Shown here: in pieces, positions 7,053-25,843 of the stretch
Position numbering within the stretch: position 1 is the stretch's first letter
How the letters are laid out: each line of letters opens with the position of its first letter
IMG/VR virus record: IMGVR_UViG_3300028883_001009
Span: 1-25,843 of that record
Strand: one strand, 5' to 3'
Source: a virus
DNA length: 25,843 nucleotides
Made by a program: the position numbers and the translations under genes
Notes under the pieces: model-generated
What the model was told of the DNA's origin: nothing
Seen by the model: only the letters and a program-made list of their open reading frames with translations
Databases searched by the model: none

Positions 7053-7074
7053 GGGTTCTCTCCTTTCACAACAG

Positions 7075-7854: not shown

Positions 7855-7877
7855 CTCTAAATCTCCTCAGTGATGGA

Positions 7878-8611: not shown

Positions 8612-8653
8612 TGACACCCCCTATCGGGCGGGGTAATACATTAACGGTAACGA

Positions 8654-8875: not shown

Positions 8876-8985
8876 GGCTGGTCTCCCTTGTCGAAAAATT
8901 GTTAGTGTTTTGACATAACTATTTATAAAATACACAATCATATGATTTTGTAAAGTCTTTATCCAATGTTTGGTGATTTTTTTCT
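8876..8985. promoter_or_regulatory. Divergent early/repressor control region
   Basis: An AT-rich gap between the Ner-like and repressor genes. On the minus strand TTTACA (about 8956-8951) followed 16 bases later by TATTTT resembles a promoter for the early genes. On the plus strand TTGACA at 8910-8915 could serve the repressor. Between them AATCATATGATT at 8936-8947 is a perfect 12-base palindrome, a good operator candidate for the repressor or Ner-like protein. Promoter calls are by eye. Confidence 0.55.
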
Positions 8986-9486
8986 ATGACTATACGCTCC
9001 GATTCATTCAGCAAAAGGCTACTTTCCCTTATTAAAAAGGCGGGGGATAATAATAAATCATTCGCGCAAGCTATAGAAATTTCTGAAAATTCAGCGACAA
9101 ACTATCTTAAAAAAGGTAGGATTCCTGAACCTGACATCCTTGTTAGGATTGCCAAGCGTTATAAAAAATCAATCGATTGGTTATTACAAGATTTGTTTGA
9201 TGAGGTCCCCAAGGAAGAAATTTCGCATGAAGCGTATCCATGTTTGGTGTTAATCGAACACTTTCAACAGAGAATGATAGCCTCCGATATAAATTTCGAT
9301 CTTTTAAAGTTAGAAAAGATACGCCCTGAGGCACTTCAGGAAGTTAGCGAATTTATAAAATTCAAAATAGGTATGTATGATCGCCGCGTAAACGGCGAGC
9401 GTCGTGAGGAAGATATTCCCGATCTGATACCCGAAGAGGATCGGCGTTCCGGTCAAGACCGCAGGGTGGCAAACCTAAAAAGTTAA
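8986..9486 (+). CDS. Mu-like prophage repressor (HTH)
   Basis: 166 residues. An N-terminal lambda-repressor-like HTH (SFAQAIEISENSATNYLKKGRIP, about residues 25-47) is followed by a helical middle and a charged tail with the DRRVNGERRE and DRRSGQDRR motifs. There is no S24 peptidase domain, so self-cleavage as in lambda CI is not expected; a Mu c-type repressor controlled by other means fits better. It diverges from the Ner-like gene. The ribosome-binding site is weak. An open frame in the -1 phase continues past its stop (9408-9842); see that entry. Confidence 0.8.
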   Translation: MTIRSDSFSKRLLSLIKKAGDNNKSFAQAIEISENSATNYLKKGRIPEPDILVRIAKRYKKSIDWLLQDLFDEVPKEEISHEAYPCLVLIEHFQQRMIASDINFDLLKLEKIRPEALQEVSEFIKFKIGMYDRRVNGERREEDIPDLIPEEDRRSGQDRRVANLKS

Positions 9487-9842
9487 AGCCCGCCCAAAAG
9501 CGCGGCAGTCAGGGTGGGCAGCGACCGCCGAAAACGTCTGGCGGCTTTTTTGCGATCTACATTGATAACCACGGCCAGGTACTTCGAATATTCAACAACA
9601 AGGCCGGCGCCAGGCTGGCCATACTACAGCCCGGACAACCCTACTATATACAGGCCCTGACCAAAAATCCGCTATCCATGGTCAGGGCCATTCGTAAGGT
9701 GGCTCAATCCTGGACGATACAGACCATACGGTTCAAGATGGGGTTTTCAAAATTTTGGATACCGGCAACTGCCCGGATCTATCCAGACGACCCTGGACCG
9801 CCCCCACTGTTGATCATGACCATCAGTTTAAACTCGCTCTGA
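9408..9842 (+). pseudogene. Open coding-like frame without a start, overlapping the repressor tail
   Basis: This frame is open from just after a TGA at 9405 to a TGA at 9840-9842 and reads as protein from about 9550 on (FFAIYIDNHGQVLRIFNN ... FSKFWIPATARIYPDDP), with GC-rich third positions like a true gene. No ATG, GTG or TTG occurs before the codon for the Met in LSMVRAIRK. It lies in the -1 frame of the repressor and overlaps its stop. Explanations: a remnant that lost its start, a frameshifted extension of the repressor, or chance. A terminator-like hairpin inside it argues against joint expression. No family is recognised. Confidence 0.4.
9525..9551 (+). terminator. Rho-independent terminator after repressor
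   Basis: CCGCC (9525-9529) pairs with GGCGG (9540-9544) around a 10-base loop and is followed by C and six T. It lies about 40 bases after the repressor stop and fits termination of the rightward repressor transcript. Confidence 0.65.
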
Positions 9843-10118: not shown

Positions 10119-10973
10119 ATGACAGACCTACAAGTCCCACAGCACTTCCGTTACATCATTCCTATTGTCCAGGTTTTGAAGGAGCTTGGAGGTTCTGGCA
10201 GAGCTGGTGAGGTCACCGATTTTGTAGTGGAAAAACTGCAAATCCCAGAAGATGAACTCAATGAAACCATTTCGTCTGCGCAATCAAGGGTTAAAAATCA
10301 AGTGCAGTGGGCCAGATTCATGCTGGTGAAGGCTGGCTATCTCGACTCATCGACCAAGGGTGTCTGGGCTCTTACAGAGAAAGGACTAAATTTGAAGCCC
10401 TCTGACCAGTTTCTACTGGATCTATACGAGCAACGGAAACATATGGGCAAGGAATACCGGCAGCAACGTAAAAAAGGTGAGGTTGGACCGGGATCTGAAG
10501 AACCAGTTGAGGGCAATGATTACCAATCTGAACTTTTGAGTAAATTGAAAAAACTGGCCCCCAATGGTTTTGAACGCATCTGCCAGAGGCTCCTCCGTGA
10601 ATCAGGCTTTGAGCAAGTCACAGTTACCGGTCGTTCAGGTGACGGTGGCATTGATGGCATCGGAGTCCTACAGGTTAATCCGTTTGTCAGCTTCAAAGTC
10701 TTGTTTCAGTGCAAGCGATATCAAGGTTCAGTTGGTGCTGCAGTGGTAAGAGATTTCAGAGGAGCCATGATGGGCAGGGCTGACAAGGGCATCATCATGA
10801 CAACCGGTACCTTCACCTTAGATGCCAAGAAGGAGGCCCGAAGAGATGGTGTTACGCCCATCGAACTGGTCGATGGTGACAGCCTGGTAGGGATGTTTGA
10901 GCAGTATGAGCTTGGCCTCAAACCATTCAAGACTTATGAACTGGATTACAAGTTCTTTGAGGAATTTGAGTAG
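10119..10973 (+). CDS. mrr: Mrr-type type IV restriction endonuclease
   Basis: 284 residues (E. coli Mrr is 304). The N-terminal Mrr winged helix (about 5-95, ending GVWALTEKGL) is followed by a linker and a PD-(D/E)xK catalytic domain (about 136-260). Visible active-site elements: E152 in FERICQRLL, D179 in GDGGIDG, and Q197-x-K199 in FQCKRYQ. Mrr enzymes cut DNA carrying foreign methylation and act as phage/DNA-entry defence. AGGAGAAG lies 4-5 bases before the ATG. No methylase gene is adjacent, as expected for a solitary type IV enzyme. It lies just outside the Mu-like element. Confidence 0.92.
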   Translation: MTDLQVPQHFRYIIPIVQVLKELGGSGRAGEVTDFVVEKLQIPEDELNETISSAQSRVKNQVQWARFMLVKAGYLDSSTKGVWALTEKGLNLKPSDQFLLDLYEQRKHMGKEYRQQRKKGEVGPGSEEPVEGNDYQSELLSKLKKLAPNGFERICQRLLRESGFEQVTVTGRSGDGGIDGIGVLQVNPFVSFKVLFQCKRYQGSVGAAVVRDFRGAMMGRADKGIIMTTGTFTLDAKKEARRDGVTPIELVDGDSLVGMFEQYELGLKPFKTYELDYKFFEEFE

Positions 10974-11279
10974 AGTTACTTCACAATCTAAATATTTTGA
11001 TAATTTAATGCCGCGAAATTAAACACGGCGGAGCTGATTGAAGCCCTTTGCCAATTAATGCCTTTCAGTATCTTAAAGGATTAATGATTTAAAGGGTGAT
11101 ATAAAATTAAATTTTGGGCATAGATATTCTATACAAATCAAAAGTTTCTCTGATTTGGGATATTGGTATGTAATCTCAGGTTTTGACAGCCTCAATTTTC
11201 GTGGGATACTCTCAATATATCTGTAATTCGAATTGTTATTGGACACTGGTATGCGGCGAATACTAAAAACTATTTAATT
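10974..11279. other. AT-rich intergenic gap
   Basis: A 306-base AT-rich stretch without a gene. Its only clear content is the promoter-like pair at 11183-11210. No strong terminator after mrr is visible; the TTAATG/CATTAA-like short repeats around 11010-11090 form no long stem. Confidence 0.4.
11183..11210 (+). promoter_or_regulatory. Candidate sigma-70 promoter
   Basis: TTGACA at 11183-11188 and GATACT at 11205-11210 with a 16-base spacer, about 70 bases upstream of the 194-residue membrane protein gene. The match is good by eye but untested. Confidence 0.45.
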
Positions 11280-11864
11280 ATGAATACAAATGAGCAAAAG
11301 AACCACTTATACGGGGTGTCGCATTTCAGCATTGGTGCCTTATTTTACATAATTTTGGCTGGACTTGTTGTTGGTGTGCTAATAATATACCCCAGCGAAA
11401 TTAGAGACGCGATTTGGTTAATGAGAAAGGATAACGCCGAATCGATTACCATTCCCTATCTATCAGTTAAACTCCAAAATGATGGCAATGAATCTATTTC
11501 ACTTCCTTTGCAAGGCGAATGCTTGTTATGGCCACCTGAGCATAGTTGGGATTATGAATGCGGATACGAATTCAAACAGACAGACGGAGCTAACATTGAT
11601 TCCAAGGCAATCTCCGTTCCCGCCAAGGGTGAAAAAGATTATCTAATTCATGTGACAAAATTAGCCCCAATTCATCAGACAAAAACTTCGCTGGCGCGTT
11701 TCCTCTTAACAGGTGATTGGCAAATCCAATTCTTCGCAGTTACAGACCAAAAAGGTCGATTAAAAATTAAGAGCAGACGCATCCCTTTCACCGTAGATTC
11801 AATGTCATCAAAATATTTATTTGAAGTATATCGGAAATCCCATCAGCGTGAACTCTTAAATTGA
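11280..11864 (+). CDS. Membrane-anchored hypothetical protein
   Basis: 194 residues. One hydrophobic segment at about 17-37 (GALFYIILAGLVVGVLII) is preceded by a short polar N-terminus, so most of the protein (about 38-194) is likely displayed on one side of the membrane. That part looks beta-rich (ITIPYLSVKLQNDGNESISLPL). No family is recognised. The gene is clearly more AT-rich than the elements on both sides, suggesting separate acquisition. No good ribosome-binding site is visible before the ATG. It has no close partner gene; it lies between mrr and the broken nuclease. Confidence 0.6.
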   Translation: MNTNEQKNHLYGVSHFSIGALFYIILAGLVVGVLIIYPSEIRDAIWLMRKDNAESITIPYLSVKLQNDGNESISLPLQGECLLWPPEHSWDYECGYEFKQTDGANIDSKAISVPAKGEKDYLIHVTKLAPIHQTKTSLARFLLTGDWQIQFFAVTDQKGRLKIKSRRIPFTVDSMSSKYLFEVYRKSHQRELLN

Positions 11865-11934
11865 AGGTCAAGATTACTCCAACGTATCTGTAGATTTGAA
11901 CAACCTGTGATTTGGTCGATGTATCGCAGTTTTT

Positions 11935-12453
11935 TCATTCCAACCAAAACGGTTGATTACAATATCTTATCGTAACTTCAGACGTGATCGGGTTTGAATC
12001 GCTCCAGAGCCCTCTGCCAGTCGCTTTGGCTTTATTTTCGTATTCAAGCCAATCACTGCAAAAATCCGCACGGCAATATTTCCGATAAACCCAGGCAAAT
12101 CCGTGCCAAACAAGGGCTTCGTTTAAGAACACATAATCGGCTGGCATCTGGACCAAGGCAACGGTTCAGCCATAACGGTCGGTGTCCATTGGAGTGATCT
12201 TCACGGTTTTCTTGAAAACCTTTTGGCTGGTGAACTGTTTGGCTTTGTTACCGAACGCCTGGCGTTTCTCTGGCGTGTCGATGCCGTAGAGACGGATCTT
12301 GACCTGATTTCCGTTATGCAGGACCTTGACTGTGTCACCGTCGGAGATGCCCACAACCTTTGCCTGGTAAGAAGGCTCTTCTGCCCAAACTAGGGTTGAC
12401 AGCAGGATAAGAAATAGAAACGCCGCCAATGATATTCGGTTGAATTTGCGCAT
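11935..12453 (-). pseudogene. Secreted thermonuclease (SNase-like), broken by in-frame TGA
   Basis: The frame starts MRKFNRISLAAFLFLILL, a signal peptide cleaved near AWAEE-like residues 22-25, then a staphylococcal-nuclease domain (about 30-155) with DGDTVKV and RLYGIDTPE. R54 and E62 match SNase R35 and E43. At codon 96 the sequence reads DTDRYG-stop-TVALVQM in one frame; family members have DRYGR or DKYGR there, and that arginine (R87 of SNase) is catalytic. CGA to TGA is a single-base change. The remainder (ALVWHGFAWVYRKYC, GRGLWSD) is intact in frame. Without read-through the product is inactive. Confidence 0.85.
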
Positions 12454-12490
12454 GCTGGCAATATTGCCACACTGCAACCGTTGCGGCCAT

Positions 12491-12528
12491 AAAAAAAAAA
12501 GACAAGCCCCTGGGCATAGAGGCTTGTC
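12491..12528 (-). terminator. Strong minus-strand terminator or leader attenuator
   Basis: GACAAGCC (12501-12508) and GGCTTGTC (12521-12528) form a perfect 8-bp stem with a 12-base loop. On the minus strand the stem is followed by ten T (12500-12491). It lies 38 bases upstream of the thermonuclease start, so it either ends an older leftward transcript or attenuates the nuclease leader. Confidence 0.75.
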
Positions 12529-12915
12529 CGTGAACAAGAGCGAAGCGGGAGAGGCTTTCCTGTTCCGTTGACTGTCTGGTTCCACAAAAGCCAGCGCAGT
12601 TTCAACTCAGATCGGTTTCAACACAGCGAGGTGAACATCCAATGCTGCTAATCTACTGAGCAGAATCAATGCCAAATAAACCATTCGATTAAATCCAATG
12701 GAATAGTGGGGACCTATAGGCTTCATTGAAAAGTTGGAGAACCATTTGTGTGCTATTTTTTATAACCTTTGTTGATAGATTTTTATTAAAAACCATCCAC
12801 CTACCCGTGATGCTCTTTTTAACCAGCTTGAATCACGATACATATTAAACCTTACCATTGGTTGGTTTTTTGCATCTACCTAAAATAGATATAAAAATAA
12901 CCGATGGAGGGTAAT
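12529..12915. other. Intergenic gap before NERD gene
   Basis: About 390 bases without a supported gene, becoming AT-rich towards the NERD gene. A divergent control region is likely, but no promoter pair with canonical spacing could be picked with confidence. Confidence 0.4.
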
Positions 12916-13815
12916 ATGGGATCAATACTGATTTCCGGTGCGTTCATTCCGGTAATGCTGCTTTCCATACTGGCTCTATCTGTTCTCTATTTTTTCAAAT
13001 CGCCTTGGTTCAAGGGATTCGCCGGAGAAATGATGGTTCATTTCTCCGCGAAGATCCATCTGAACAAGGATAAATATCACGTCCTCAGGAACGTCACGCT
13101 GCCCACCATTGATGGCACGACCCAGATTGACCATATTATCGTTTCACAATACGGCGTGTTCGTCATCGAGACCAAGAATATGAAAGGATGGATTTTTGGA
13201 GGCGCCCGTCAGAAAACGTGGACCCAAAAAATATTCAAATATACAAAAAAATTTCAAAATCCCCTTCATCAAAACTACAAACACGTTGAAACCCTGAAAT
13301 CATTGCTGGAACTGACCGATCAGCAAATATTCTCGGTTGTCGCATTTGTAGGCAACAGCACCTTCAAAACCGAAATGCCGAATAATGTGATCAACGTCCC
13401 AGGACTGATCAGGTATATCAAATCCAAGGACCGGCAGGTGATACTTAGCACTGATGTACCGATGATTGTTTCCAAAATTGAGGCTGAGCGACTGGCCCCA
13501 TCGAGAGAAACTACCAAGGCACACATAAAACACGTCAAAAATATTATCGAGGAGAAACAAACCAGGCATTCATGCCCCAGAAATGATAGCCCTATGGCTG
13601 TTCGCAACGTGAAGAACAACGCGAATCGTAGGCAACCAATTCCGGAATATTCGAGAGCGCCAAAACCCGGAAAGGTTTTAGATAGTCCACCAAAAAATGA
13701 TGAAGTGGGATTTTCGAAGAAGGCAGAACCGTTGTTTACGGATTCCTGGGGAAATAGAACATGGCGGGATGATGAAATAGAACCGGCATTTATGATGGAT
13801 CGGGAGTTTCGATAA
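12916..13815 (+). CDS. Membrane-anchored NERD-domain nuclease-like protein
   Basis: 299 residues from the ATG at 12916, which has GGAGGG four bases upstream; an in-frame ATG at 12904 overlaps that site. An N-terminal membrane segment (about 5-27) precedes a NERD domain (about 34-150). PD-(D/E)xK-like residues are visible: E38 (GFAGEMM), D72 (TQIDHI) and E85-x-K87 (VIETKN). NERD proteins are predicted nucleases involved in DNA processing. Near residues 215-235 CPRNDSPMAVRNVKNNAN resembles the topoisomerase-type zinc finger often fused to NERD, but the second and later cysteines are lost. The tail is charged and probably disordered. Confidence 0.85.
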   Translation: MGSILISGAFIPVMLLSILALSVLYFFKSPWFKGFAGEMMVHFSAKIHLNKDKYHVLRNVTLPTIDGTTQIDHIIVSQYGVFVIETKNMKGWIFGGARQKTWTQKIFKYTKKFQNPLHQNYKHVETLKSLLELTDQQIFSVVAFVGNSTFKTEMPNNVINVPGLIRYIKSKDRQVILSTDVPMIVSKIEAERLAPSRETTKAHIKHVKNIIEEKQTRHSCPRNDSPMAVRNVKNNANRRQPIPEYSRAPKPGKVLDSPPKNDEVGFSKKAEPLFTDSWGNRTWRDDEIEPAFMMDREFR

Positions 13816-14604: not shown

Positions 14605-14976
14605 CACTTTCTGTTTTTGTCGATTTTTATTACTCTTTGTTATCATTTGATAAAAATCACTTTGTGAAATTTTTTACCCCTATGCGTCCCTTTTCGCACT
14701 TTTTTCCAATCAACATCGACCGCAAATTGCCGTAAAATCCCTTTAAATCCCCTTTAAACGGGCATTCACGCAACTTAAAATCGACTGGAATTGGCATCAG
14801 CCCAGACGCGGCCAAGGCCGAAAAACGGCCCAAAACGCCATTTTGGTTTCATTTTTAGAATCCGCGTCCGGTCACCACAACATCCGGCGCAAGCCCACGA
14901 CATCACAGCATATCCCACTGCATCCCGGCTGGTCCCGGCCAATCCCGGGTGGTTTCAAACCTGGTGTCAGATCACA
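14605..14976 (+). repeat. Diverged direct repeat, copy 1 (about 372 bp)
   Basis: A pyrimidine-rich non-coding stretch that aligns from end to end, with no net length change, to 15519-15891. The shared left start is CACTTTCTG. The right third is best conserved (CCATTTTGGTTTCATTTT, CCCGGGTGGTTTCAAACC) and both copies end GTGTCAGATCACA. Copy 1 follows the HU/IHF-like gene directly. The short frames inside it are not convincing genes. Confidence 0.7.
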
Positions 14977-15518: not shown

Positions 15519-15891
15519 CACTTTCTGATTTTTCGTCAAAGCCCTTTTATGTTGATTTAATTAACAATTTAAATTTTTTGTCCGAATTGAACCCATTTCC
15601 CCGCATTTCCGGACTTTTTTCTGACCAGTGGCCATCGCCTGCAGGCTTTTAAACACGCTTTAAACCGCCATTAACGAGCCTTCACGTCTATTTAAAACAC
15701 CATAAATAGACACCCATCAGGTCGCCGATCCGGCCCAAAAACCGTCAAAGCCCCATTTTGGTTTCATTTTGCCGATCCACGCCGCCACGACAAACCATCC
15801 CACGCAAGGCCCCAACATCAAAAGACATCCCACTGAATCCCGCCCTGTCCCGGCCAATCCCGGGTGGTTTCAAACCGAGTGTCAGATCACA
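15519..15891 (+). repeat. Diverged direct repeat, copy 2 (about 373 bp)
   Basis: Partner of 14605-14976 in the same orientation, offset by about 914 bases. Conserved blocks include CACTTTCTG at the left, GGCCCAAAA, CCATTTTGGTTTCATTTT, and CGGCCAATCCCGGGTGGTTT before the terminal GTGTCAGATCACA. The left two-thirds is heavily diverged, so the duplication is old or the copies are members of a dispersed family. Confidence 0.7.
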
Positions 15892-16049: not shown

Positions 16050-16099
16050 TGGTACGCCCGGCCCGATTCGAACGGGCGGCCTACGGATTCGAAGTCCGC
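16050..16099 (-). tRNA. tRNA-Arg(UCG) 3' fragment, attachment-site remnant
   Basis: Read on the minus strand: anticodon stem 5' side (16099-16095), loop CTTCGAA with anticodon TCG (16094-16088), stem 3' side, variable loop AGGCC, T-arm GCCCG-TTCGAAT-CGGGC, acceptor 3' strand CGGGCGT, A73 and CCA (16052-16050). The acceptor 5' strand and D-arm are missing; unrelated sequence follows. Only a 3' half is present, as expected at one end of an element that integrated at the anticodon region and carries its own 3' half at the other end. The anticodon call assumes the loop is unaltered. Confidence 0.75.
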
Positions 16100-16194
16100 T
16101 TAAAACAACATTGATCGGCATTGATAACTACATCTATTTACCTAATATTTTCAGTATTTAATAAAATCCCCTCTTTTTAATCAACGCTTTTCAA

Positions 16195-16234
16195 TTGACA
16201 AATATTGACGAAATTTGCTTACATAGTGCTTACA
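16195..16234 (+). promoter_or_regulatory. Candidate integrase promoter with TGCTTACA pair
   Basis: TTGACA at 16195-16200 followed by TTACAT at 16219-16224 (18-base spacer) resembles a promoter. It overlaps two direct TGCTTACA sites (16216-16223, 16227-16234) spaced 11 bases apart, one helical turn, which suggests a protein binding on one face of the DNA. Confidence 0.4.
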
Positions 16235-16345
16235 CGTTTGGCCTGCGGATTTTTGTAATCACCTTCGGATTTTTTATCCGTTGAAATGGCCTAACCTTCG
16301 GATTCTTGTAACCGACCGCCGGAAAACACATCCGACAAAATTTTG

Positions 16346-16364
16346 TGTAAGCATCGTGTAAGCA
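16346..16364 (-). promoter_or_regulatory. Inverted TGTAAGCA pair at integrase start
   Basis: Two TGTAAGCA sites (16346-16353, 16357-16364), again 11 bases apart, are the inverse of the TGCTTACA pair at 16216-16234. They abut the ribosome-binding site of the integrase. They are candidate arm-type integrase sites or operators for autoregulation. Confidence 0.5.
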
Positions 16365-16375
16365 AAGGGGGCAAT

Positions 16376-17698
16376 ATGGCAAGACAGAAACTGACCGCCG
16401 GCAGGGTGAAAGATTTCAACTGTCCATCCAACAAACAACAGGCCTTTTTATGGGATTCCGAGGTTCCAGGCTTGGGTATCCGTTCCACTAAAAAGGCAAA
16501 AGTCTACATTTTCCAATCCCGTTTGGACGGAAAAACCATCCGCGTCAAAATCGGTGATGTTCGAACATGGGTGATTGATAATAGCAATCCCGAAAGCCCT
16601 GGCGCCCGCCAAGAAGCCCGCCGGCTTCAATCCATGGTTGATCAAGGGGTTGACCCGCGAGTTGCTAAACAGGAGCGCATAACGGCGCAGCATGAGGAAA
16701 AAGAAGAAGCGGAGCGGCAGGAAGTGACCGTCAAAGAGGCCTGGGACGATTACATCAAAGACCGCCGGGACCATTGGAGCGCCCGCCACCTTGCCGACCA
16801 TGAGAGCCTTGCCGACCCTGGGGGCCGGAAGCGCCAGAAGGGAAAGGGGAAAATCAAACCTGGACCGCTGGCAAAGTTGATGCCGTTGAAGCTGGCCGAA
16901 CTGGATCAAAAACAGTTTGAATCATGGCTCAAGACGGAATCGAAAAATCGAGCGGCTAGGGCCCGGCTGGCATTCAGCCTGTTTCGTGCTTTCCTCAATT
17001 GGTGCGATATAAAATCCGAATATCATGGCCTGTGCTCTCCCGCCGTTTGTTCCACTCGAATTAAAAAAGACGTACTTCCAAAGCAAAAACCGAAAGCCGA
17101 CTGCCTACAACGAGAACAGCTTTCCGTGTGGTTCAAAGCCGTTCGTGAATATCATAACCCGGTCATATCCGCGTATCTCCAAACTTTGCTTTTGATCGGA
17201 GCCAGACGGGGGGAGCTTGCCCGCCTGCGATGGGATGACGTTGACTTTCAATGGCAAAGTCTCACTATCCGCGACAAGGTAGAAGGAGAAAGAACCATCC
17301 CCTTAACGCCCTACGTCGCGAGCCTTCTGTCCCCTCTTCCGCGTCGTAATCAATACGTTTTCAGCAGCCCGGCGGCTAAATCAACAAGAATATCTGAACC
17401 ACGTCATGCTCACAACAAATGTCTTGCCGCAGCCGGCATCGATGGTCTGACTCTGCATGGCCTTCGGCGATCCTTCGGCACTTTGTCGGAATGGTGTGAA
17501 TCTCCGGTGGGAGTTGTCGCTCAACTTATGGGCCACAAGCCATCCGCCATTGCGGAAAAGCACTACCGGGCACGGCCACTGGATCTGTTGCGAATGTGGC
17601 ACGTCAAAATTGAGGCCTGGATCTTGGAGCAAGCCGGCATCGAACAGCCGGAAGCCGGTGAAACGGGGTTGAAGGTGGTCGGCGGAGGTCAAAAATAA
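16376..17698 (+). CDS. int: P4-type tyrosine integrase
   Basis: 440 residues from the ATG at 16376 (GGGGG six bases upstream); a GTG at 16343 would start inside the TGTAAGCA sites. The N-terminal DUF4102-like arm-binding part (about 1-95, KVYIFQSRLDGKTIRVKIG) is followed by a core-binding domain (about 115-215) and the catalytic domain (about 240-410). Catalytic residues: R277 (GARRGEL), H361 and R364 (HGLRRSF), H387 (LMGHK) and Y397 (EKHY). It sits next to a tRNA fragment, as usual for P4-type integrases. The stop overlaps the next start (TAATG). Confidence 0.95.
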   Translation: MARQKLTAGRVKDFNCPSNKQQAFLWDSEVPGLGIRSTKKAKVYIFQSRLDGKTIRVKIGDVRTWVIDNSNPESPGARQEARRLQSMVDQGVDPRVAKQERITAQHEEKEEAERQEVTVKEAWDDYIKDRRDHWSARHLADHESLADPGGRKRQKGKGKIKPGPLAKLMPLKLAELDQKQFESWLKTESKNRAARARLAFSLFRAFLNWCDIKSEYHGLCSPAVCSTRIKKDVLPKQKPKADCLQREQLSVWFKAVREYHNPVISAYLQTLLLIGARRGELARLRWDDVDFQWQSLTIRDKVEGERTIPLTPYVASLLSPLPRRNQYVFSSPAAKSTRISEPRHAHNKCLAAAGIDGLTLHGLRRSFGTLSEWCESPVGVVAQLMGHKPSAIAEKHYRARPLDLLRMWHVKIEAWILEQAGIEQPEAGETGLKVVGGGQK

Positions 17699-18372
17699 TG
17701 GGGAAAAAATACATCATCGAAAAAGATTTATCCGGCAATGTTTTATCAAAAAAATTGTTCGATAGAGTCGAATGGACTGCCTCAAAACCGGACGTTTTAA
17801 AGGGAGTTTTTTTCGAATTTGATGATGATGAACGTGAGGAAATAATCGATAATATCAATGCGCTTTGCCCGTCAAATAAAATTGACGTTGAATCCTTTAT
17901 TCGTGAGATTGAAACAGCATGCAATTTGGCAAATGCAAGGGAACCCAAACGGAAAAGAAAAAACGAACAACTTGACCAATTGATAAAGAAAATTCATTCC
18001 TTTAATGCAACGATTGACGATATTAAAAACTTTTCGGAAGACAACTTTCAGCATGATAGTTTTCCCGATGAAGTGTATCTAACTGCATCAAAAATGTCTG
18101 AACATCTCGTTCGTCTTGAGTCCTTACTTGAAAGTAAAAAAAAGATGCTATCGAAAAAGTTTTCGACGCCCGGAAGATCAAAAAACGATACAACAATAGC
18201 GGTCGGGCGTGGCGTAAAAGACGTTTTCGAACACTTCAAATTGCATATTTCTAAAAGTGATACAGGCCTATTTGTCACGATTTTTTTGCTATGTCTAAAT
18301 GCCCTGGAATTTCATTATAAGGATATCGGTCGAATCCTTTTACACGTATTCGACGAAACCTCCGAAAAATAG
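17698..18372 (+). CDS. Hypothetical protein coupled to integrase
   Basis: 224 residues, coupled to the integrase stop by TAATG. It is more AT-rich than the integrase and lysine-rich. The middle is charged and helical (EPKRKRKNEQLDQLIKKIH; LVRLESLLESKKKMLSKKF), probably coiled-coil. A hydrophobic patch near residues 193-208 (GLFVTIFLLCLNALEF) could be a buried helix or a membrane segment. No family is recognised. Being locked to the integrase suggests a role in the element's control or a cargo function, but nothing in the sequence decides this. Confidence 0.65.
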   Translation: MGKKYIIEKDLSGNVLSKKLFDRVEWTASKPDVLKGVFFEFDDDEREEIIDNINALCPSNKIDVESFIREIETACNLANAREPKRKRKNEQLDQLIKKIHSFNATIDDIKNFSEDNFQHDSFPDEVYLTASKMSEHLVRLESLLESKKKMLSKKFSTPGRSKNDTTIAVGRGVKDVFEHFKLHISKSDTGLFVTIFLLCLNALEFHYKDIGRILLHVFDETSEK

Positions 18373-18438
18373 GTAGGTTTCGTACCTTTCGGGCTTTTCC
18401 TTTTCCCACTACGTTGGCGGCAACACGTTGATAACCGT

Positions 18439-18462
18439 TGCCGTCACTTTCTTTTGACGGCA
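18439..18462. promoter_or_regulatory. Inverted repeat upstream of HTH gene
   Basis: TGCCGTCA (18439-18446) and TGACGGCA (18455-18462) form a perfect 8-bp inverted repeat with an 8-base spacer, 24 bases before the HTH gene start. No T-run follows on the plus strand, so an operator or leader hairpin is more likely than a terminator. Confidence 0.45.
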
Positions 18463-18486
18463 GCACTATCCGAAAGGAATGCCGTC

Positions 18487-18675
18487 ATGGACAAAAATCA
18501 TCTCAACACCAATCAATTTGCTGCCCGTTTTGGCGTCAAAGGCGAAACAGTCCGCCGAAATCTTTGCGTCAAGGGTCATTTCTTGGGCGTCAGACCGATC
18601 AAACTGCCCAACCGGCGCTTGCTGTGGCCTGACGTAACCCCTGAGCAAATCACAAAGCAACCTGCGGAGAGATAG
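18487..18675 (+). CDS. Small HTH protein, excisionase/AlpA-like
   Basis: A 62-residue protein starting MDKNHLNTNQFAARFG. AAAGGA lies about 8 bases before the ATG at 18487. The sequence is a small winged-helix/MerR-like fold: NQFAARFGVKGETVRRNL as the HTH, then LPNRRLLWPDVTPEQI as the typical wing and final helix. Proteins of this type act as excisionases or regulators (AlpA-like) in P4-type elements. Its position between integrase and replication genes fits that role. The specific function is inferred. Confidence 0.75.
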   Translation: MDKNHLNTNQFAARFGVKGETVRRNLCVKGHFLGVRPIKLPNRRLLWPDVTPEQITKQPAER

Positions 18676-18678
18676 GCC

Positions 18679-18792
18679 ATGGCGACCGGGGCAGCGGAAG
18701 CGCAAAAAAGGATCATGGCGCGATTGGAAATGATAAAAACAACCGGGGCAGCGGTTAAAGGGCGGGCACATGAAAACCCCACTTCCACATAG
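18679..18792 (+). CDS. Possible 37-residue leader-like protein
   Basis: A short frame (MATGAAEAQKRIMARLEMIK, ending ENPTST) with GGAGAG about 7 bases upstream of the ATG, starting 3 bases after the HTH gene and overlapping the start of the replication ATPase gene by 23 bases. The spacing fits translational coupling. The content is helical and otherwise featureless. It could be a real small protein or simply the leader of the ATPase gene. Confidence 0.4.
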   Translation: MATGAAEAQKRIMARLEMIKTTGAAVKGRAHENPTST

Positions 18793-20155
18793 TATCGAGC
18801 ACGAACAGTCGGTCATATCCGGCTTACTACTCAATCCTGAAACAGCCGAAACCGTTTTTAAAATTCTCACCCCCGAAGACTTTTATAATACGTCAAACCA
18901 GGAAACAATCAGGACCATGCAGACCCTTTATAATAAAGGTCTGCCGCCTGACATCGTTTCAACGGTCCAATCGCTGAGAGAAGTCGGAAAGCTTCAAAAG
19001 GTTGGCGGCGCTGCCCACCTGAAGCGGTTGACAATGGAATGCCCGGTTCCATCGGACACAGCATCGTATTGCCGAAAAATTGCCGAGCTATCCACCCACC
19101 GAAAAGTCATAATTGCGGCCAATGAGATAACCAAGCAGGCCGGAAACGGCAACGGCGGCGACCTGGGAGCATTCGCCCGGCAAGCTATCGAAACGGCGCT
19201 TGCATCGAGCCTGCCGGCTGCCAGTGTTGGCACCTGGGAATGTTTAGCAGACCTTCAAAAAAAGGTTTTTCCTGAGCCTAAAATGGTTGTTCCGCCAATT
19301 TTGGCACAAGGCAGCACCATTCTGGGAGCACCGCCGAAAATAGGGAAAAGCGTGTTGGCGGCCAATTTGTGTGTTTCGGTTTCCACCGGCGGGAAAGCGC
19401 TGGGCACCTTCGTCGTGGAGCCGGGCACTGTCTTTTACATCTCCCTTGACGATAAATCAGAGCGGCGCTTGAAAACTCGAATAGAGCGAATGCTGCCGGC
19501 ATACGATACCGCATGGCCGGCAAATTTTTTCTATGCCACCAACTTCCCGAAAGCCGATGAGGGAGGCATTGAATCCCTGCGCGAATTTATCCGCCAGCAC
19601 CCGGACACCCGCCTTATCGTAATCGACACAATGTACAAATTTTTGTCCGGCAAACGGGACCGCCAGAAGAATGCCTACGAAATCGACGTTGACCGCCTGA
19701 CACCCGTGGCGGAAATGGCCACCGAAGCCGGCATATGCCTTTTACTCATTCACCACACCACAAAAACCAAATACCAGGACCCTTTCGACAGCATATCCGG
19801 CAGCATCGGCACACAGGGAAGCGTTGACGATTTAATCGTCATCGAGCGGGACCGGGCCGGCTTCAAGCTGTCCACCAGGGGGCGAAGCCTGGACGATAGG
19901 TCAATCATATTGGAACGGCACCGGGAAACCTTCACCTGGCAGTACAAGGGAGAAGCCGGGGAAGTCATGGCTTCGAATAATCAGCAGGCCATTATCGACG
20001 TACTGAAGGAAAACGGCGGCTCCATGAGTCCAAAGGAAATCGCCAGAGAATCAGGCGTGAACGAAAGAACTATTCGCCATAATCTCAAGCGGTTTTGTGA
20101 GCAAGGGATAGTTAAAGCGGTTGGATACGGCCAATATATCTCAATGACTACCTAA
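18770..20155 (+). CDS. Replication ATPase: DnaB-N domain plus RepA-type RecA fold
   Basis: 461 residues. The N-terminus (about 5-110, PHSIEHEQSVISGLLLNPE, PEDFYNTSNQETIRTM) matches the DnaB helicase N-terminal domain. It is followed by a RepA/AAA_25-type RecA-fold ATPase (about 165-395): Walker A GAPPKIGKS at 186-194, Walker B RLIVID with D286, and a LLLIHHTTK sensor-like strand. The C-terminus (about 400-455, MSPKEIARESGVNERTIRHNL) is a winged helix. The combination suggests an element-encoded replicative helicase or initiator that also binds DNA. Iterons lie directly downstream. AAAGGGCGGG precedes the ATG. Confidence 0.88.
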   Translation: MKTPLPHSIEHEQSVISGLLLNPETAETVFKILTPEDFYNTSNQETIRTMQTLYNKGLPPDIVSTVQSLREVGKLQKVGGAAHLKRLTMECPVPSDTASYCRKIAELSTHRKVIIAANEITKQAGNGNGGDLGAFARQAIETALASSLPAASVGTWECLADLQKKVFPEPKMVVPPILAQGSTILGAPPKIGKSVLAANLCVSVSTGGKALGTFVVEPGTVFYISLDDKSERRLKTRIERMLPAYDTAWPANFFYATNFPKADEGGIESLREFIRQHPDTRLIVIDTMYKFLSGKRDRQKNAYEIDVDRLTPVAEMATEAGICLLLIHHTTKTKYQDPFDSISGSIGTQGSVDDLIVIERDRAGFKLSTRGRSLDDRSIILERHRETFTWQYKGEAGEVMASNNQQAIIDVLKENGGSMSPKEIARESGVNERTIRHNLKRFCEQGIVKAVGYGQYISMTT

Positions 20156-20199
20156 GAAGAGAGAGAGAATGTTTTTTTCTTTTAGAGAGTGTTTTTACG

Positions 20200-20366
20200 T
20201 TGCCTACCTTGCCGGGTTTGCCGGGTTTGCCTACCTTGCCGGGTTTGCCTACTTGGTTGGAAGTCGGCAACGGTTGGCAATGAGTAGGCAACAAGTAGGC
20301 AACGTTGCCAAGTTAGAAAAAGCCTTATTTTTTAAGATCTTAGCTGCAAGTAGGCAAGGTAGGCAA
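20200..20366. repeat. Phased 9-bp iterons, candidate replication origin
   Basis: Six perfectly phased 9-base units: TTGCCTACC (20200), TTGCCGGGT (20209, 20218), TTGCCTACC (20227), TTGCCGGGT (20236) and TTGCCTACT (20245). The inverse unit, AGTAGGCAA or GGTAGGCAA, recurs at 20283, 20294, 20349 and 20358, the last two in tandem. Between the inverse groups lies an AT-rich stretch (about 20315-20345) suited to strand opening. Position directly after the replication ATPase gene, as in many plasmid and phage origins, supports the call. Confidence 0.7.
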
Positions 20367-20614
20367 TGGCGGCAATAAGACCAATTCAAAAACAGCTTTT
20401 CCCCGACGCCCGCCCGTCGGGGAAAATTGGACCGTCGGCGGCTGCCTCCGTCGGCGGTCCAATCTTTATAAAATACTGCGGTTGTCCACTTCAAACCCTG
20501 GAAAGGGTACGGGAGATATTCGGCCGTGATCGGAATTTTATCCTGATACCCGAAAAACTTTGGCACCGGCTGCGGCCGGAAAATCGAAAGGAGAAAACAG
20601 ATGGACCACTATGA
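20366..20614 (+). CDS. Possible small protein spanning palindromes
   Basis: 82 residues starting MAAIRPIQKQLFPDARP. AAGGT lies about 5 bases before the ATG, but that sequence is also the last iteron. The second half has coding-like codon use (TLERVREIFGRDRNFILIPEKLWHRL), and the stop overlaps the start of the next gene. The first half is made largely of the two palindromes at 20397-20463, which gives a Gly/Ala/Ser-rich peptide. It may be a real gene with a structured 5' end, or a shorter gene starting later. No family is recognised. Confidence 0.5.
   Translation: MAAIRPIQKQLFPDARPSGKIGPSAAASVGGPIFIKYCGCPLQTLERVREIFGRDRNFILIPEKLWHRLRPENRKEKTDGPL
20397..20463. repeat. Two adjacent strong palindromes
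   Basis: TTTTCCCCGACG (20397-20408) pairs perfectly with CGTCGGGGAAAA (20415-20426) around a 6-base loop. Directly after, ATTGGACCG (20426-20434) pairs with CGGTCCAAT (20455-20463), enclosing direct repeats CCGTCGGCGG at 20432 and 20448. No T-run follows on either strand, so these are not ordinary terminators; an origin structure is possible. Confidence 0.75.
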
Positions 20615-20792
20615 ATTTTGTATTGGGAGAAGCCCCATAGGCAACGTGATTGAGTTTATCCAACTGATGGTGGTGGAAGAGATGGAAGTCGAGTTGGGCG
20701 GCTGCCTTCATTTCGAGATTGCTGATGATGAACAACGGCTGCGGCTGGCCGAGACGTTCCGCGCTGCGGCTGATGTGTTGGTGGGGGGCTGA
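20601..20792 (+). CDS. Small acidic hypothetical protein
   Basis: A 63-residue protein starting MDHYEFCIGRSPIGN. A good AAAGGAG lies 7 bases before the ATG, which overlaps the end of the preceding frame. It is acidic and helical (EFIQLMVVEEMEVELGG; DDEQRLRLAETFRAAADVL). No family is recognised. It lies between the candidate origin and the terminase genes. Confidence 0.6.
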   Translation: MDHYEFCIGRSPIGNVIEFIQLMVVEEMEVELGGCLHFEIADDEQRLRLAETFRAAADVLVGG

Positions 20793-20909
20793 TAAAGTAG
20801 GTTCTTCTGAGCGATAGATCACCCTCGGTGACGGCCAGCACCGAAGCTGGCCACAGATAAACCCCAAAAAAACCTGTAAATTTATAAAAATGGAAAGTTG
20901 GAAAATAAA

Positions 20910-21443
20910 ATGGAAAATTTTCCGAGCAGACGAAAAGCCCACGAATGGCTGAGAGCCCAAGGTTACAAGGTTTCACAAGGGAAAATTTACAGCGACGCGG
21001 CAAAAGGCTTGCTTTACCAACAGCCGGACGGCTCCGTCCTTATGGAAAGCGTTACCCGGTATATCCAGCTTGCCGGCCTGGTGAAACCCGGTGCCGAATC
21101 TGCGGAAGTGGCGCCGAAGGTCAACCAGAAGCTGGCCGAAGAGATCCGGCAGTTGCAGCTTAAAAACGAGCGCCTGCAACATGAAAATGATGTCATGCAT
21201 GGCCGGTATATCCTAAAAAACGACCACGAAGCGGAGCTTGTTGACCTTGCCGCCCTGCTGGACGCGGTGCCGCGGCATGTCCTGCGGAGGAACCTGCCCA
21301 CATACCTGTCATCGATCGACGCCGACCCGAGCAGGGCGAACGACTTTTACGGAATGTTCGACCGGGACCTCACCACCGAAATAAACGCGATTTGCGATGC
21401 CGGCGAGGTCGAACTCGTGCCGGAGGGCTCCGATGCGGATTGA
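20910..21443 (+). CDS. Terminase small subunit, Nu1-like
   Basis: 177 residues from the ATG at 20910; an in-frame TTG at 20898 is possible and neither has a strong ribosome-binding site. Residues about 5-55 form a winged helix of the Nu1 kind (RKAHEWLRAQGYKVSQGKIY ... QPDGSVLMESVTRYIQLAG), followed by a coiled coil (about 75-105, EEIRQLQLKNERLQHEND) and a helical C-terminus. In lambda-like phages Nu1 binds the packaging site and hands DNA to the large subunit. The next gene, overlapping by 11 bases, is the GpA-type large subunit, which supports the call. Confidence 0.75.
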   Translation: MENFPSRRKAHEWLRAQGYKVSQGKIYSDAAKGLLYQQPDGSVLMESVTRYIQLAGLVKPGAESAEVAPKVNQKLAEEIRQLQLKNERLQHENDVMHGRYILKNDHEAELVDLAALLDAVPRHVLRRNLPTYLSSIDADPSRANDFYGMFDRDLTTEINAICDAGEVELVPEGSDAD

Positions 21444-23289
21444 GACCGCTCGGCCGTTTTCCGATGCCGGAGCATTTAAGATCCGTCCGCGTTTACGGCT
21501 GAAGCTGAAGAAACGCCCGCCGATGGCTGTGAGCGAATGGGTTGAAAAGTATCGTGTAGCGCCCGCCGATAGTCCTGTTCCTGGCCCCTGGAGAAACGCA
21601 ACAACTCCCTACCTTGTCGGGATCATGGACGCGATCATGCGCCCGCATGTGCAGGAAGCGGCTATTTGTGCTCCCCCCCAGACCGGCAAAACGGACCTGG
21701 CCTTAAATATCGCTGGATATACCACAGACCGTGTTCCGGGGAACTGGTTGATCGTTTACCCGGATGAAAAAACCGCCGGCGATCTATCCCGCGACCGGGT
21801 GCAACCCATGTTTCAGGAAAGTCCGCGGCTCCGCAAATATCTGACAGGGGCCGTGGACGATATGAGCGCGCACCGCCTGACCTTGAAAAACTCCAGGATT
21901 TATTTTGCCTGGGCATCCAGTGCATCCCGCCTGGCATCCCGCCCGTTGCCGTTCGTCCTGTTGGATGAAGTTGACAAGTATCCTGCCGTTGCAAATTCGA
22001 AAGAGGCCGGACCGATAGACCTGGCCCGGAAACGGACGCGGACCTTCGGCCACATGAGGAAAATAATACGGGTATCGACGCCCACCGTTGAAGCCGGGCC
22101 CATTTGGCAAGCCCTGGAAACCGAAGCCGAGGCGGTTTTCGTTTATTGGGTGCGTTGCCCGTTGTGCGACGCCTGGCAGCTGATGGACTTCACCTCCATC
22201 AAATGGAACGGCGGCGGCGATGCGGATCCGCGTGAGATCCTTTCGGACCCGGCATCCACTTGGTACGAATGCCCCGAATGTGGTGGCCATTGGGACGATG
22301 CCCGGCGGGATCTGGCCGTTGCTGCAGGAACATGGCGAGACCGGGAAACCGGCGACGATATGACCGATGTTCTCGAGACGAAGCGCCCCGTTTCCATCGG
22401 TTTCCACTATCCAGCCTGGATAAGCAGATTTGTCCCTCTCAGAGAAGCGGCAGGCGCGTTTATCAAGGGGCAAAATGACATATCGGCACTCAAGGACTTT
22501 GCCAATGCCTATGAGGCCCGACCGTGGAAAATTCAGCCGGCGGGAAGAGACGTCGACAAGATCCTGACGCTGGTAGATCCGACCCGGCCGCGAGGGTTGG
22601 TGCCGGGCGGCGACAGCATCGCCGTGATCACCGCCGGAATCGATACGCAAGATTCAGGCTTTTGGTACTGGCTTCAAGCGTGGGAATGGGCGAAACCGGG
22701 CACCCGACCCATTGGTCATTGCATCCGGGCCGGCTTTGTCACCGACTTCGAGGCTTTGTCACAGGTCTTGTGGCAGGATTTGCCCGGCGATGCGGATGGG
22801 AACCGATACGCGGTTTCCTTCTCCCTTCAGGATGCCATGGGACATCGTACCGCCGAGGTTTACGACTTCTGCCGGATGAATCCAGGGCGGATTGCACCGT
22901 CGATTGGTCGGCAGAAGTTGGCGAAGCCTTTTCAGTGGTCGAAACAGTCGAGCGATCCGGGCGGTTTACAGGCTGTCATCGTCTCTACGCAATACTTTAA
23001 GGATGAGGTTGCATCCGCCCTGCAAGTGCTGCCCGAAGATCCCGGCAGCCTATCCCTGTACGATCAGTTCCCCGAGGATTATGCGAGGCAGTTGTCCGTC
23101 GAATACGTCAACGAGAATGGCGTCTGGGAATGCCCGGACGGGAAAGACAATCACTTGTGGGATTGCCTTGTTCTCAACTTTTGCGCCCTGGAAATCCTCG
23201 ATGCCCGATATTGGACAAAACCCGAAACACAGCCAACGCCACGGCCACGGCCCCAGAGACGGAAGCCCGAACGCGTGAGGCGGTGGTAG
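21433..23289 (+). CDS. Terminase large subunit, GpA family
   Basis: 618 residues from the ATG at 21433 (GGAGGG five bases upstream). The N-terminal ATPase has Walker A APPQTGKT (80-87), Walker B VLLDEV (D178, E179) and the coupling motif RVSTPT. A zinc-like insertion has C242, C245, C280 and C283 (CPLC, CPEC). The nuclease half has acidic motifs D404 (GIDTQDSG) and a late LWDCLVL. All are features of lambda GpA-type terminases (about 640 residues), which cut concatemers and pump DNA into proheads. The Arg-rich tail ends ERVRRW; in lambda the C-terminus contacts the portal. Confidence 0.95.
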   Translation: MRIETARPFSDAGAFKIRPRLRLKLKKRPPMAVSEWVEKYRVAPADSPVPGPWRNATTPYLVGIMDAIMRPHVQEAAICAPPQTGKTDLALNIAGYTTDRVPGNWLIVYPDEKTAGDLSRDRVQPMFQESPRLRKYLTGAVDDMSAHRLTLKNSRIYFAWASSASRLASRPLPFVLLDEVDKYPAVANSKEAGPIDLARKRTRTFGHMRKIIRVSTPTVEAGPIWQALETEAEAVFVYWVRCPLCDAWQLMDFTSIKWNGGGDADPREILSDPASTWYECPECGGHWDDARRDLAVAAGTWRDRETGDDMTDVLETKRPVSIGFHYPAWISRFVPLREAAGAFIKGQNDISALKDFANAYEARPWKIQPAGRDVDKILTLVDPTRPRGLVPGGDSIAVITAGIDTQDSGFWYWLQAWEWAKPGTRPIGHCIRAGFVTDFEALSQVLWQDLPGDADGNRYAVSFSLQDAMGHRTAEVYDFCRMNPGRIAPSIGRQKLAKPFQWSKQSSDPGGLQAVIVSTQYFKDEVASALQVLPEDPGSLSLYDQFPEDYARQLSVEYVNENGVWECPDGKDNHLWDCLVLNFCALEILDARYWTKPETQPTPRPRPQRRKPERVRRW

Positions 23290-23300
23290 AAAGGAAAATC

Positions 23301-23534
23301 ATGGCAGAGCAAGTACTTGTTGGAGCAAATGAAATTAAGAAATTTTTGGGCGGCGTCAGCGATGACACGTTGATGAGAATGTACAGGCGGCACCGACTGC
23401 CCATTTATAAAAGGGAGGGGGTTTGGGTCGGCAACGAAAGCGAACTCACCCGCTGGCTTGAATGGTGGCGCGAGGAAATGCTGACTTCCACCAGGCCGGC
23501 CAGGGGGGTCTCGCGGCGTGTGAAAAGATGGTAG
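23301..23534 (+). CDS. Small HTH-17-like protein in the packaging cluster
   Basis: 77 residues starting MAEQVLVGANEIKKFLG. AAAGGA lies 6 bases before the ATG. It looks like a small DNA-binding fold: EIKKFLGGVSDDTLMRMYRR as the HTH, then LPIYKREGVWVGNESELTRWLEWW. It occupies the place of lambda gpW between terminase and portal/protease genes but does not look like gpW. It could be a regulator of the packaging genes or a specificity factor. The stop overlaps the protease start. Confidence 0.7.
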   Translation: MAEQVLVGANEIKKFLGGVSDDTLMRMYRRHRLPIYKREGVWVGNESELTRWLEWWREEMLTSTRPARGVSRRVKRW

Positions 23535-24328
23535 ACCGCGATCCATGCAAAAACCCGGACTGCAGGTTTTACGATACCTGTCCGCTGCGACCGTCTCCCC
23601 ACCTGCCCGTGGATCCAAATCCACCCCGGCAGCCGACCCCGGCCCGGGCGGCATGGTACGCGGTGGATAGCGATTATTCGGGGCGGATCGGCCGGTTGCA
23701 TATCCGCGGCGAGATAGCAAAACCCATGCTCCCAATCTTGGCGCAATTTGAAAGGTTGCTGGCCATCGTTGACGGCGCCTTCGTCGTTTTCAATTCACCC
23801 GGCGGAAACGCATTCGTCGAAAGCCGGCTGGTGGAGGTTCTCGAGACGGCATCCGCGACCATGCCCACCGTCGCCTATTTACGGCAGGCGTGCAGCGCCG
23901 CATTCATTGCGTCCATGGCTGCCAGCCGGATCTATGCGCGCCCCGATGCCCGGCTTGGTGGCCTGGGGGTATTGTGCAGGACCTGCGATGGGTACCGCCC
24001 GACAACGCTGGTAAGTGCGCAAACACCTGCCAAAACCGATGGACGGCCTCTTGCCCCGTGGATTTTCGCAAAAATGACGGATCACGCGGTTTTGCAGGAT
24101 TCGCTCGATGCTTCGTTTTACGAAACCATCAAGGAGGTCTGCCGGCACCGGGGATGCTCAATTGATAGCATCGTTCGGCTTTTGGACGGCAGGATCTTCC
24201 CTGCGAAACAGGCACACCAGGCTGGCCTCATCGACGGTGTGGTCCTCGGGGAAACGGAAGCCTTTGAAAAATTGTCAATTTTAATTCATGAAAGGAAGCA
24301 AAAATGTTTAAGAAAAAAAGCAAGTTAG
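23528..24328 (+). CDS. S49-type prohead protease-like protein
   Basis: 266 residues starting MVDRDPCKNP; the ATG overlaps the previous stop. The N-terminus carries a Cys cluster (C7, C12, C18), unusual for the family. The crotonase/ClpP-like core (about 50-240) shows VFNSPGGNAFV, the likely nucleophile S123 in RQACSAAFIASMAASRIY, the likely general base K169 in TPAKTDGRP, and the family ending GRIFPAKQAHQAGLIDGVV. In lambda-like phages (gpC) and many others this enzyme processes the prohead and scaffold. It normally lies next to the portal gene, which is absent here. Confidence 0.85.
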   Translation: MVDRDPCKNPDCRFYDTCPLRPSPHLPVDPNPPRQPTPARAAWYAVDSDYSGRIGRLHIRGEIAKPMLPILAQFERLLAIVDGAFVVFNSPGGNAFVESRLVEVLETASATMPTVAYLRQACSAAFIASMAASRIYARPDARLGGLGVLCRTCDGYRPTTLVSAQTPAKTDGRPLAPWIFAKMTDHAVLQDSLDASFYETIKEVCRHRGCSIDSIVRLLDGRIFPAKQAHQAGLIDGVVLGETEAFEKLSILIHERKQKCLRKKAS

Positions 24329-24930
24329 ACGATGCCTTAGACCGTATTCTGGCGATTGAAAAACGGCGGGACGAAACCCGGACGGCGTTGGAATTGGCGA
24401 AAAGGGAACTGCGGGAGAAGATCAACGAAAACCTCGAAAGCGGCTCAACCGCTGGTGAAACAAAGCTGAAATCTCAGATTGCGGGCCACCAGGCGGCTTA
24501 TGACGAACTCACCAGGCTGCTATCCGAAGCCCACGAAACCGCAAAAAAAGCCGTTGGCGTGGGCAAAGACACCCGAAGGGGTGAACTCGAAAAGCTGAAA
24601 TCGGAAATCGATGAGACGACCGCCAGCATCGACCGGCGCCGGATCACTGAATTTATCAAATTTGCCAAATCGCACGGCGTTGCATACCAGTTGCCCAAAT
24701 TTGGAAAGCAAGGCAACAAGGGCAGCATGGAAATCCCCACCGTGGAGCTTACCGATGAAGAGTTGGCGGCAATCGTCGAAACCACGAACGTTGACGTCAT
24801 TGTCGATGGCGAGCAGGACGCGCTGGAAAACCTACGAGTTAAGCAATCGCAGGTTGAGACCTTGGTATATAGCGATCCGGCAACGGCCGTGAACATCCTT
24901 CTTCACGAACGTCGCGTAGCACAACGATAG
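24304..24930 (+). CDS. Coiled-coil protein after protease, scaffold-like position
   Basis: 208 residues starting MFKKKSKLDDALDRIL. GAAAGGAAG lies 6-7 bases before the ATG, which overlaps the protease gene by 25 bases. Residues about 5-115 are a long charged coiled coil (LELAKRELREKINENLES; ELEKLKSEIDETTASID); the C-terminal half is mixed and acidic. Position after the S49-type protease matches the scaffold protein of lambda-like phages (Nu3), which is also helical, but no sequence signature confirms it. It is the last gene before a terminator-like hairpin. Confidence 0.7.
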   Translation: MFKKKSKLDDALDRILAIEKRRDETRTALELAKRELREKINENLESGSTAGETKLKSQIAGHQAAYDELTRLLSEAHETAKKAVGVGKDTRRGELEKLKSEIDETTASIDRRRITEFIKFAKSHGVAYQLPKFGKQGNKGSMEIPTVELTDEELAAIVETTNVDVIVDGEQDALENLRVKQSQVETLVYSDPATAVNILLHERRVAQR

Positions 24931-24979
24931 CTTTCGCACCTTTGGCGATCATTGGGCGCCTATCCCGTGGGTGCGATTG

Positions 24980-25025
24980 ACGGCCGGCCGGGTGGCCTCG
25001 TACCGGTCGGCCGTTCATCTTTTTG
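24980..25025 (+). terminator. Terminator-like hairpin after the packaging genes
   Basis: ACGGCCGGCCGG (24980-24991) pairs with CCGGTCGGCCGT (25003-25014), one G-T pair, with an 11-base loop, followed by TCATCTTTTTG. It is a strong stem with a modest T-tract, about 50 bases after the coiled-coil gene stop. Confidence 0.6.
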
Positions 25026-25038
25026 AGAACAGGAACGC

Positions 25039-25200
25039 ATGCGAAACTATCGATGTAAGTATTATCTCGACTGTTTAGCGAGAGCCGCAAGAACGAACGA
25101 AAAGGATCTGCCCTGCCGTGGGTGCCCGTTCGAGGCGGACCGGGGCGCGGAATCCACGACGTTTGATGGGCGATGCCTGGGCCGGTTTTTATTTGCATAG
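25039..25200 (+). CDS. 53-residue Cys-rich mini-protein
   Basis: Starts MRNYRCKYYLDCLARAARTN and ends GRCLGRFLFA. AGGAA lies about 6 bases before the ATG at 25039. Five cysteines (6, 12, 26, 29, 46), with CRGC in the centre, suggest a zinc ribbon or knuckle. No named family is recognised. It follows the packaging genes after a terminator-like hairpin and ends 38 bases before the convergent AT-rich gene. Confidence 0.6.
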   Translation: MRNYRCKYYLDCLARAARTNEKDLPCRGCPFEADRGAESTTFDGRCLGRFLFA

Positions 25201-25237: not shown

Positions 25238-25843
25238 TCAATATCTTGCTTCTGATAAGACGCCTTTTTTTCTGAGGCTTCTCAATAAATTTGAACTTTC
25301 TTTTTTCAAAATTTCATGAGTTTTCTTTATTTCTTTAGCGTATTGAATCAGTTGTGTAAACCGGAGTTGCAAATGCTGTTTATGCACTTGGTTATTGGTT
25401 TCACGAAATAGTTGTTCCAAATATTCGTATTTCTGAACTAAGTCGTTATTTAAACGAAATGAATCTATCAAGGCTTTGGCTAAAGTGTAAGTTTTAACTA
25501 TTTGCTTTCTTAAATCGTTGTCTGCGATACGACCAATCAAGAATGAATTTCCATTATAAACAGCAAAATAGTCATTAACTAAAGGATAATGAAATAAGAG
25601 GGGTTGGTTTTCTTTTAAGGCATCAACATTAGACCCCATTGTTTCCTGGTATCTCTCAGTTATAGTTTCCATTTCATCGTGGATTGCCTGCAAAAAACCT
25701 TTAACAAGGCTGTCTTCATTTCTCTCTGCTTGGTCAAGATTTTTACGATGGGCTCTATCCACACTTATTAAAGCAAAAAAACCAGTAATAATACCACCGA
25801 CGATAGCACCTAAAATCGCAGAGCCAAAATTGACCCACTCCAT
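25238..25843 (-). CDS. AT-rich membrane-anchored coiled-coil protein
   Basis: 201 residues from an ATG at the very window edge (MEWVNFGSAILGAIVGG), so an upstream extension cannot be excluded. A hydrophobic segment at about 8-28 anchors the N-terminus. The rest is helical and charged, with a likely coiled coil near the end (LIQYAKEIKKTHEILKKE). The base composition is far more AT-rich than the packaging genes, and the gene runs opposite to them, which fits a later-acquired cargo gene near the element's end. No family is recognised. A defence or exclusion role is conceivable but not shown. Confidence 0.6.
   Translation of the reverse strand: MEWVNFGSAILGAIVGGIITGFFALISVDRAHRKNLDQAERNEDSLVKGFLQAIHDEMETITERYQETMGSNVDALKENQPLLFHYPLVNDYFAVYNGNSFLIGRIADNDLRKQIVKTYTLAKALIDSFRLNNDLVQKYEYLEQLFRETNNQVHKQHLQLRFTQLIQYAKEIKKTHEILKKESSNLLRSLRKKGVLSEARY

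Follow-up and report, generated by a model that had tools for sequence, protein, structure and literature searches.

What kind of element integrates at a tRNA gene, brings its own replication protein and both terminase subunits, and has no portal gene where its relatives carry one? The window analyzed here is the complete IMG/VR record IMGVR_UViG_3300028883_001009 (25,843 bases), in which the initial annotation had read positions 16050-25200 as a capsid-less phage satellite. We tentatively favor a chimeric island integrated at tRNA-Arg that has captured a portal-less packaging cassette and is most likely a phage satellite.

Attachment Site and Genomic Context

A partial tRNA-Arg(UCG) gene on the minus strand (16053-16101), comprising its 3' half, marks the left border and substantiates the tRNA 3' fragment described initially. 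The Rfam tRNA alignment shows a gene split at the anticodon loop: the match is good over the 3' half, the 5' half is unmatched, and the match ends at the anticodon stem-loop, where the element begins. We assign this displaced tRNA half as attL. A minus-strand tRNA 3' half with the same break point, followed by an integrase, is also found in three of the four integrase relatives (L102, L105 and L106), and the recurrence of this layout indicates that the fragment is a true attachment site and not a chance match. Read by eye, the anticodons of these tRNA halves correspond to Asn (L102, L105) and Lys (L106); Rfam scores those of L105 and L106 weakly and does not detect that of L102. No clear tRNA fragment was seen by the integrase of the fourth relative, L107.

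In tRNA-targeted islands, the integrase lies between the tRNA fragment and the regenerated tRNA (PMC4383910). Given the orientation of fragment and integrase, a regenerated tRNA is expected to the right of the element. In the 25,843 bases of the window, the tRNA 3' half does not recur and no intact tRNA was found, suggesting that the element, unless damaged, extends past position 25843. The border initially placed at 25200 must accordingly be abandoned, as the right end lies outside the record. A minus-strand gene for a 201-aa protein (25238-25843) starts at the very edge of the record, whose final triplet is its ATG in reverse complement, suggesting that a provirus was trimmed at a gene boundary. 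This protein, with an apparent N-terminal membrane segment, is a possible cargo protein.

Positions 1-9500 of the window contain the early region of a partial Mu-like prophage (GemA, an AAA protein, a Mu-type transposase and a repressor), separated from attL by other genes and IS debris. We rejected this prophage as part of the element, as its genes run mostly in the opposite direction and no phage-type genes lie between its repressor and attL. Within the Mu-like early region, adjoining GemA, there is a Type II hammerhead ribozyme (1571-1635, minus strand) scoring 52 bits, above the gathering score. The interval between prophage and element also encodes an Mrr-type nuclease, a nuclease-like fragment and a NERD-domain protein (10119-13815), as well as a 146-bp direct repeat (14831-14976 and 15746-15891, 79% identical) that adjoins an IS3-type transposase fragment. 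A host among the Desulfobacterota is a guess, prompted by the appearance of HU-like and ClpX-zinc-finger proteins.

Integration and Replication Genes

The integrase proposed initially is a tyrosine integrase of 440 aa (16376-17698, plus strand), with matches to PF00589 (4e-16), PF13356 (Arm-DNA-bind_3) and phrog_1; it is 51-53% identical to those of L102, L105, L106 and L107, the four relatives found. At its stop codon begins an A+T-rich gene for a 224-aa protein (17698-18372, plus strand), for which family searches returned no match and viral contigs no relative. A small HTH protein follows (18454-18675, plus strand; HTH_DeoR 0.0025, below the cut-off), a possible regulator or excisionase. 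The replication ATPase (Rep, 461 aa; 18770-20155, plus strand) combines DnaB_N (1e-23), AAA_25 (3e-25) and C-terminal winged HTH domains, as judged from Pfam and from DnaB structures. After its gene, at 20200-20375 on both strands, there are clustered direct and inverted repeats reading TTGCC/GGCAA (TTGCCTACC / GGTAGGCAA) with 9-bp spacing, possible iterons or an origin, so that the initial pairing of a replication ATPase with clustered repeats stands. A replication protein with adjoining repeats is typical of self-replicating elements; the element is self-integrating and probably self-replicating. A 63-aa ORF without assignment (20601-20792, plus strand) completes this half, and the distance from integrase to small terminase (TerS) is only about 3.2 kb.

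Among 31 phage records related through the large terminase (TerL), none contains an AAA_25 Rep scoring over the family cut-off, suggesting that the left and right halves of the element are of different origin. A similar AAA_25 domain occurs in the human-gut records L104 and L103, which we rejected as elements of the same kind: L104 encodes an integrase, a Rep and an apparent mobilization protein, and L103 has no other element-type genes. No second copy of the element was found, and element-specific searches with the Rep, 224-aa, S49 and coiled-coil proteins gave no relatives in viral contigs.

The Packaging Cassette

The right half opens with a Nu1-like TerS (20898-21443, plus strand), which matches phrog_57 weakly, is homologous to the gene preceding TerL in many relatives, and is 47% identical to its L027 counterpart. 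TerL (21397-23289, plus strand) overlaps TerS by 47 bp and is a GpA-type large terminase with ATPase and nuclease domains (PF05876, 3e-64; PF20454, 5e-39); both subunits had been recognized as such in the initial annotation. Alignment shows the Walker A and Walker B motifs retained in TerL, along with the conserved Asp residues in its nuclease domain; in the TerL tree the protein is sister to L027 with 100% support, within a phage clade. The small HTH protein encoded next (23301-23534, plus strand) resembles the one encoded after TerL in many of the related phages and occupies the equivalent position. A small HTH gene soon after TerL is conserved across the phage lineage (L004, L005, L039, L041, L046 and L054).

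The following gene (23528-24328, plus strand) encodes an S49 protein of the SppA/head-maturation type with a Cys-rich N terminus, assigned from PF01343, phrog_53, TIGR00706 and SppA structures. The S49 domain is clear (E 1e-9), as initially proposed, with SppA models scoring 67 bits versus 73 bits for the phage head-protease family; the active-site serine aligns, and the alignment of the nearby lysine is uncertain. In alignments the protein is shortened relative to its phage homologues, with neither their N-terminal domain nor one of their internal segments, and its structure is predicted poorly (pLDDT 47). Shortened and poorly modeled, it might serve as something other than a head protease. 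The gene after it (24304-24930, plus strand) encodes a 208-aa protein modeled as two long helices. The helical coiled coil of the initial description is thus retained, and the scaffold part is more doubtful: the match to Phage_scaffold has an E-value of 0.012, and a structure search with the model returned no significant fold match, making the protein scaffold-like at best. A role in the head is plausible for either the S49 or the 208-aa protein. Satellites are known to redirect helper shells via scaffold-type proteins, such as Sid of P4 and TcaP of PLE (PMC10945586); by analogy of function, and not of sequence, the 208-aa coiled coil could be a shell-redirecting factor of this kind. A 53-aa Cys-rich ORF without a family match (25039-25200, plus strand) lies between it and the terminal 201-aa gene, which is A+T-rich like the 224-aa gene.

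The gene set, its order and its intact reading frames agree with the first description. Genes overlap at three of the four junctions of the right half (TerS-TerL, HTH-S49 and S49-coiled coil), and all reading frames are open, with none broken across 9 kb, which indicates a compact operon. TerS and TerL, together with the small HTH and S49 genes, match the packaging module of lambda-like phages. Packaging genes that are phage-derived and nested among those of portal-bearing phages are also what a decayed prophage would leave, one from which gpW, portal, coat and tail were deleted and in which the open packaging genes persist in an immobile or only integrase-mobile remnant. The shortening of the S49 protein and the adjoining Mu-like prophage and IS debris are in keeping with such decay, but the unbroken frames, the preserved start/stop overlaps, the short integrase-TerS distance and a Rep not found in the related phages are not, and we consider a decayed prophage rather unlikely.

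The Portal Gap

A model search of the whole record (25,843 bases) gave no match to the portal family PF05136, confirming that the portal is missing from it, and a family search detected no coat or tail families among the element's proteins within the record. By comparison, PF05136 is present in all 23 viral TerL relatives of a first scan (in one of them below the cut-off, at the record end), and the portal lies downstream of TerL in all 44 relatives that have at least 4 kb after TerL. The gene order in related phages is TerS, TerL, HTH, gpW-like, portal, S49, scaffold-like and coat; the portal precedes S49 in each of the 17 relatives showing both. In the window, the S49 gene overlaps the HTH gene, with neither gpW nor portal between them, and this junction is unique among the relatives seen. 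The portal is absent from its usual place within the record, an absence established for the record and not for the whole element: the record contains only 2.55 kb after TerL, and the TerL-portal gap is longer than this in 13 of 60 relatives.

In the related phages L037, L070, L032, L065 and L028, insertions collect between TerL and portal; this hot spot measures 0.7-7 kb and carries antirepressor-like, ParB-like and methyltransferase-like genes.

Relatives with accessory-filled gaps of up to 7 kb, together with the attR missing from the window, raise the alternative that the record covers only part of a longer element, an entire temperate phage or capsid-forming satellite with a rearranged order, its portal, coat and perhaps tail genes lying right of 25843; portal and capsid genes further right are what the initial annotation had named as refuting its satellite. 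The integrase relatives L102 and L106, which do carry coat, protease and portal genes, agree with this alternative. It would, however, place S49 before the portal, an order found in none of the 17 relatives, and the last gene of the record is A+T-rich and on the opposite strand; moreover, the apparent cut at a gene start would fit a provirus caller that saw no further phage genes. We regard such a longer element as improbable, to about the same degree as the decayed prophage.

Comparison with Known Phages and Satellites

The closest relatives of the right half are lambda-like phages with a GpA terminase and a PF05136 portal (L002-L011 and L027-L101, IMG/VR), which share a homologous TerS-TerL-HTH series and S49 in the same relative order. 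These phages also encode gpW, a portal, coat and tail, whereas the window lacks a portal and joins the cassette to a foreign integrase-Rep half; the arrangement typical of a lambda-like temperate phage, with portal and coat after the terminase and S49 after the portal, is not present within the 2.55 kb following TerL. Close relatives with a full structural module, which the initial annotation had counted as evidence against a satellite, thus exist for the packaging module, whose kin resemble full phages, and not for the integrase-Rep half.

Capsid-forming PICIs (cfPICIs) encode coat, head protease, portal, connectors and both terminase subunits (PMC10690885). The element resembles them in its tRNA-site integrase, its own large and small terminase and its compactness; it differs in that, the S49 protein excepted, the coat, portal and connectors of cfPICIs are unseen in the record, which ends before the element's right end. 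In L102 and L106, a major capsid-protease-portal series follows about 3.5-4 kb after the integrase. We note that L102 (7560-16437) and L106 (596-8959) contain cfPICI-like elements, each with a tRNA-half site followed by integrase, coat, protease and portal, in that order; both records end before any terminase. This kinship places the integrase of the window near satellite-type elements and mildly favors a satellite over an ordinary prophage.

PICIs and SaPIs use the TerL of their helper and encode at most their own TerS, while P4-like satellites are characterized by the large primase-helicase P4 alpha, Psu, Delta and Sid. The element is similar to both in its integrase, HTH regulators, own replication protein and possible capsid-altering protein. 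It is set apart from the former by a full-length GpA TerL of its own, and from the latter by a Rep composed of DnaB_N and AAA_25 and by the absence of the P4 families among its proteins. Integrative mobilizable elements with an AAA_25 Rep (e.g., L104) likewise have an integrase adjoining the Rep gene, but the element carries a phage packaging cassette, and no relaxase was seen in it.

A Proposed Chimeric Satellite-Like Island

Among the explanations considered, a satellite is the likeliest single one, although we hold it with less than even confidence; the deleted prophage and the element continuing beyond the record edge come about equally behind it. What endures of the initial satellite claim are the intact frames, a left half foreign to the related phages, the cfPICI-like kin and the portal gap, to which we add a compact integrase-Rep-TerS-TerL layout unlike that of the related phages. 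The claim is weakened by a right end outside the record, by the short stretch after TerL, by the lack of a second copy, by the shortened S49 protein and by the possession of its own TerL without its own portal, which is unusual for a satellite.

As a satellite, the element would use its left half (integrase, HTH regulator, and AAA_25 Rep with repeats) for excision, integration and replication. The right half (TerS, TerL, HTH, S49 and coiled coil) would descend from a lambda-like phage lineage through loss of gpW and portal. Upon induction, the element would replicate, and its own TerS and TerL would direct its DNA into procapsids built with the portal and coat of a helper, which the S49 and coiled-coil proteins may in turn adjust. 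Helper dependence, packaging and the roles of these two proteins are predictions.

If the locus is a deleted prophage or a truncated record, it is ordinary. Known satellites occupy two poles: those that borrow both the TerL and the shell of their helper, and the cfPICIs, which make a whole head. There is some chance, though well below even, that the element represents a class of satellites with a complete terminase of its own, a modified S49 protein and a coiled-coil protein, and with neither portal nor coat, whose own motor docks on the portal of a helper. If so, the combination of own motor and borrowed portal would be the missing middle step between the two poles, and the element would offer a test of whether TerL docking extends to a portal that is not its own.
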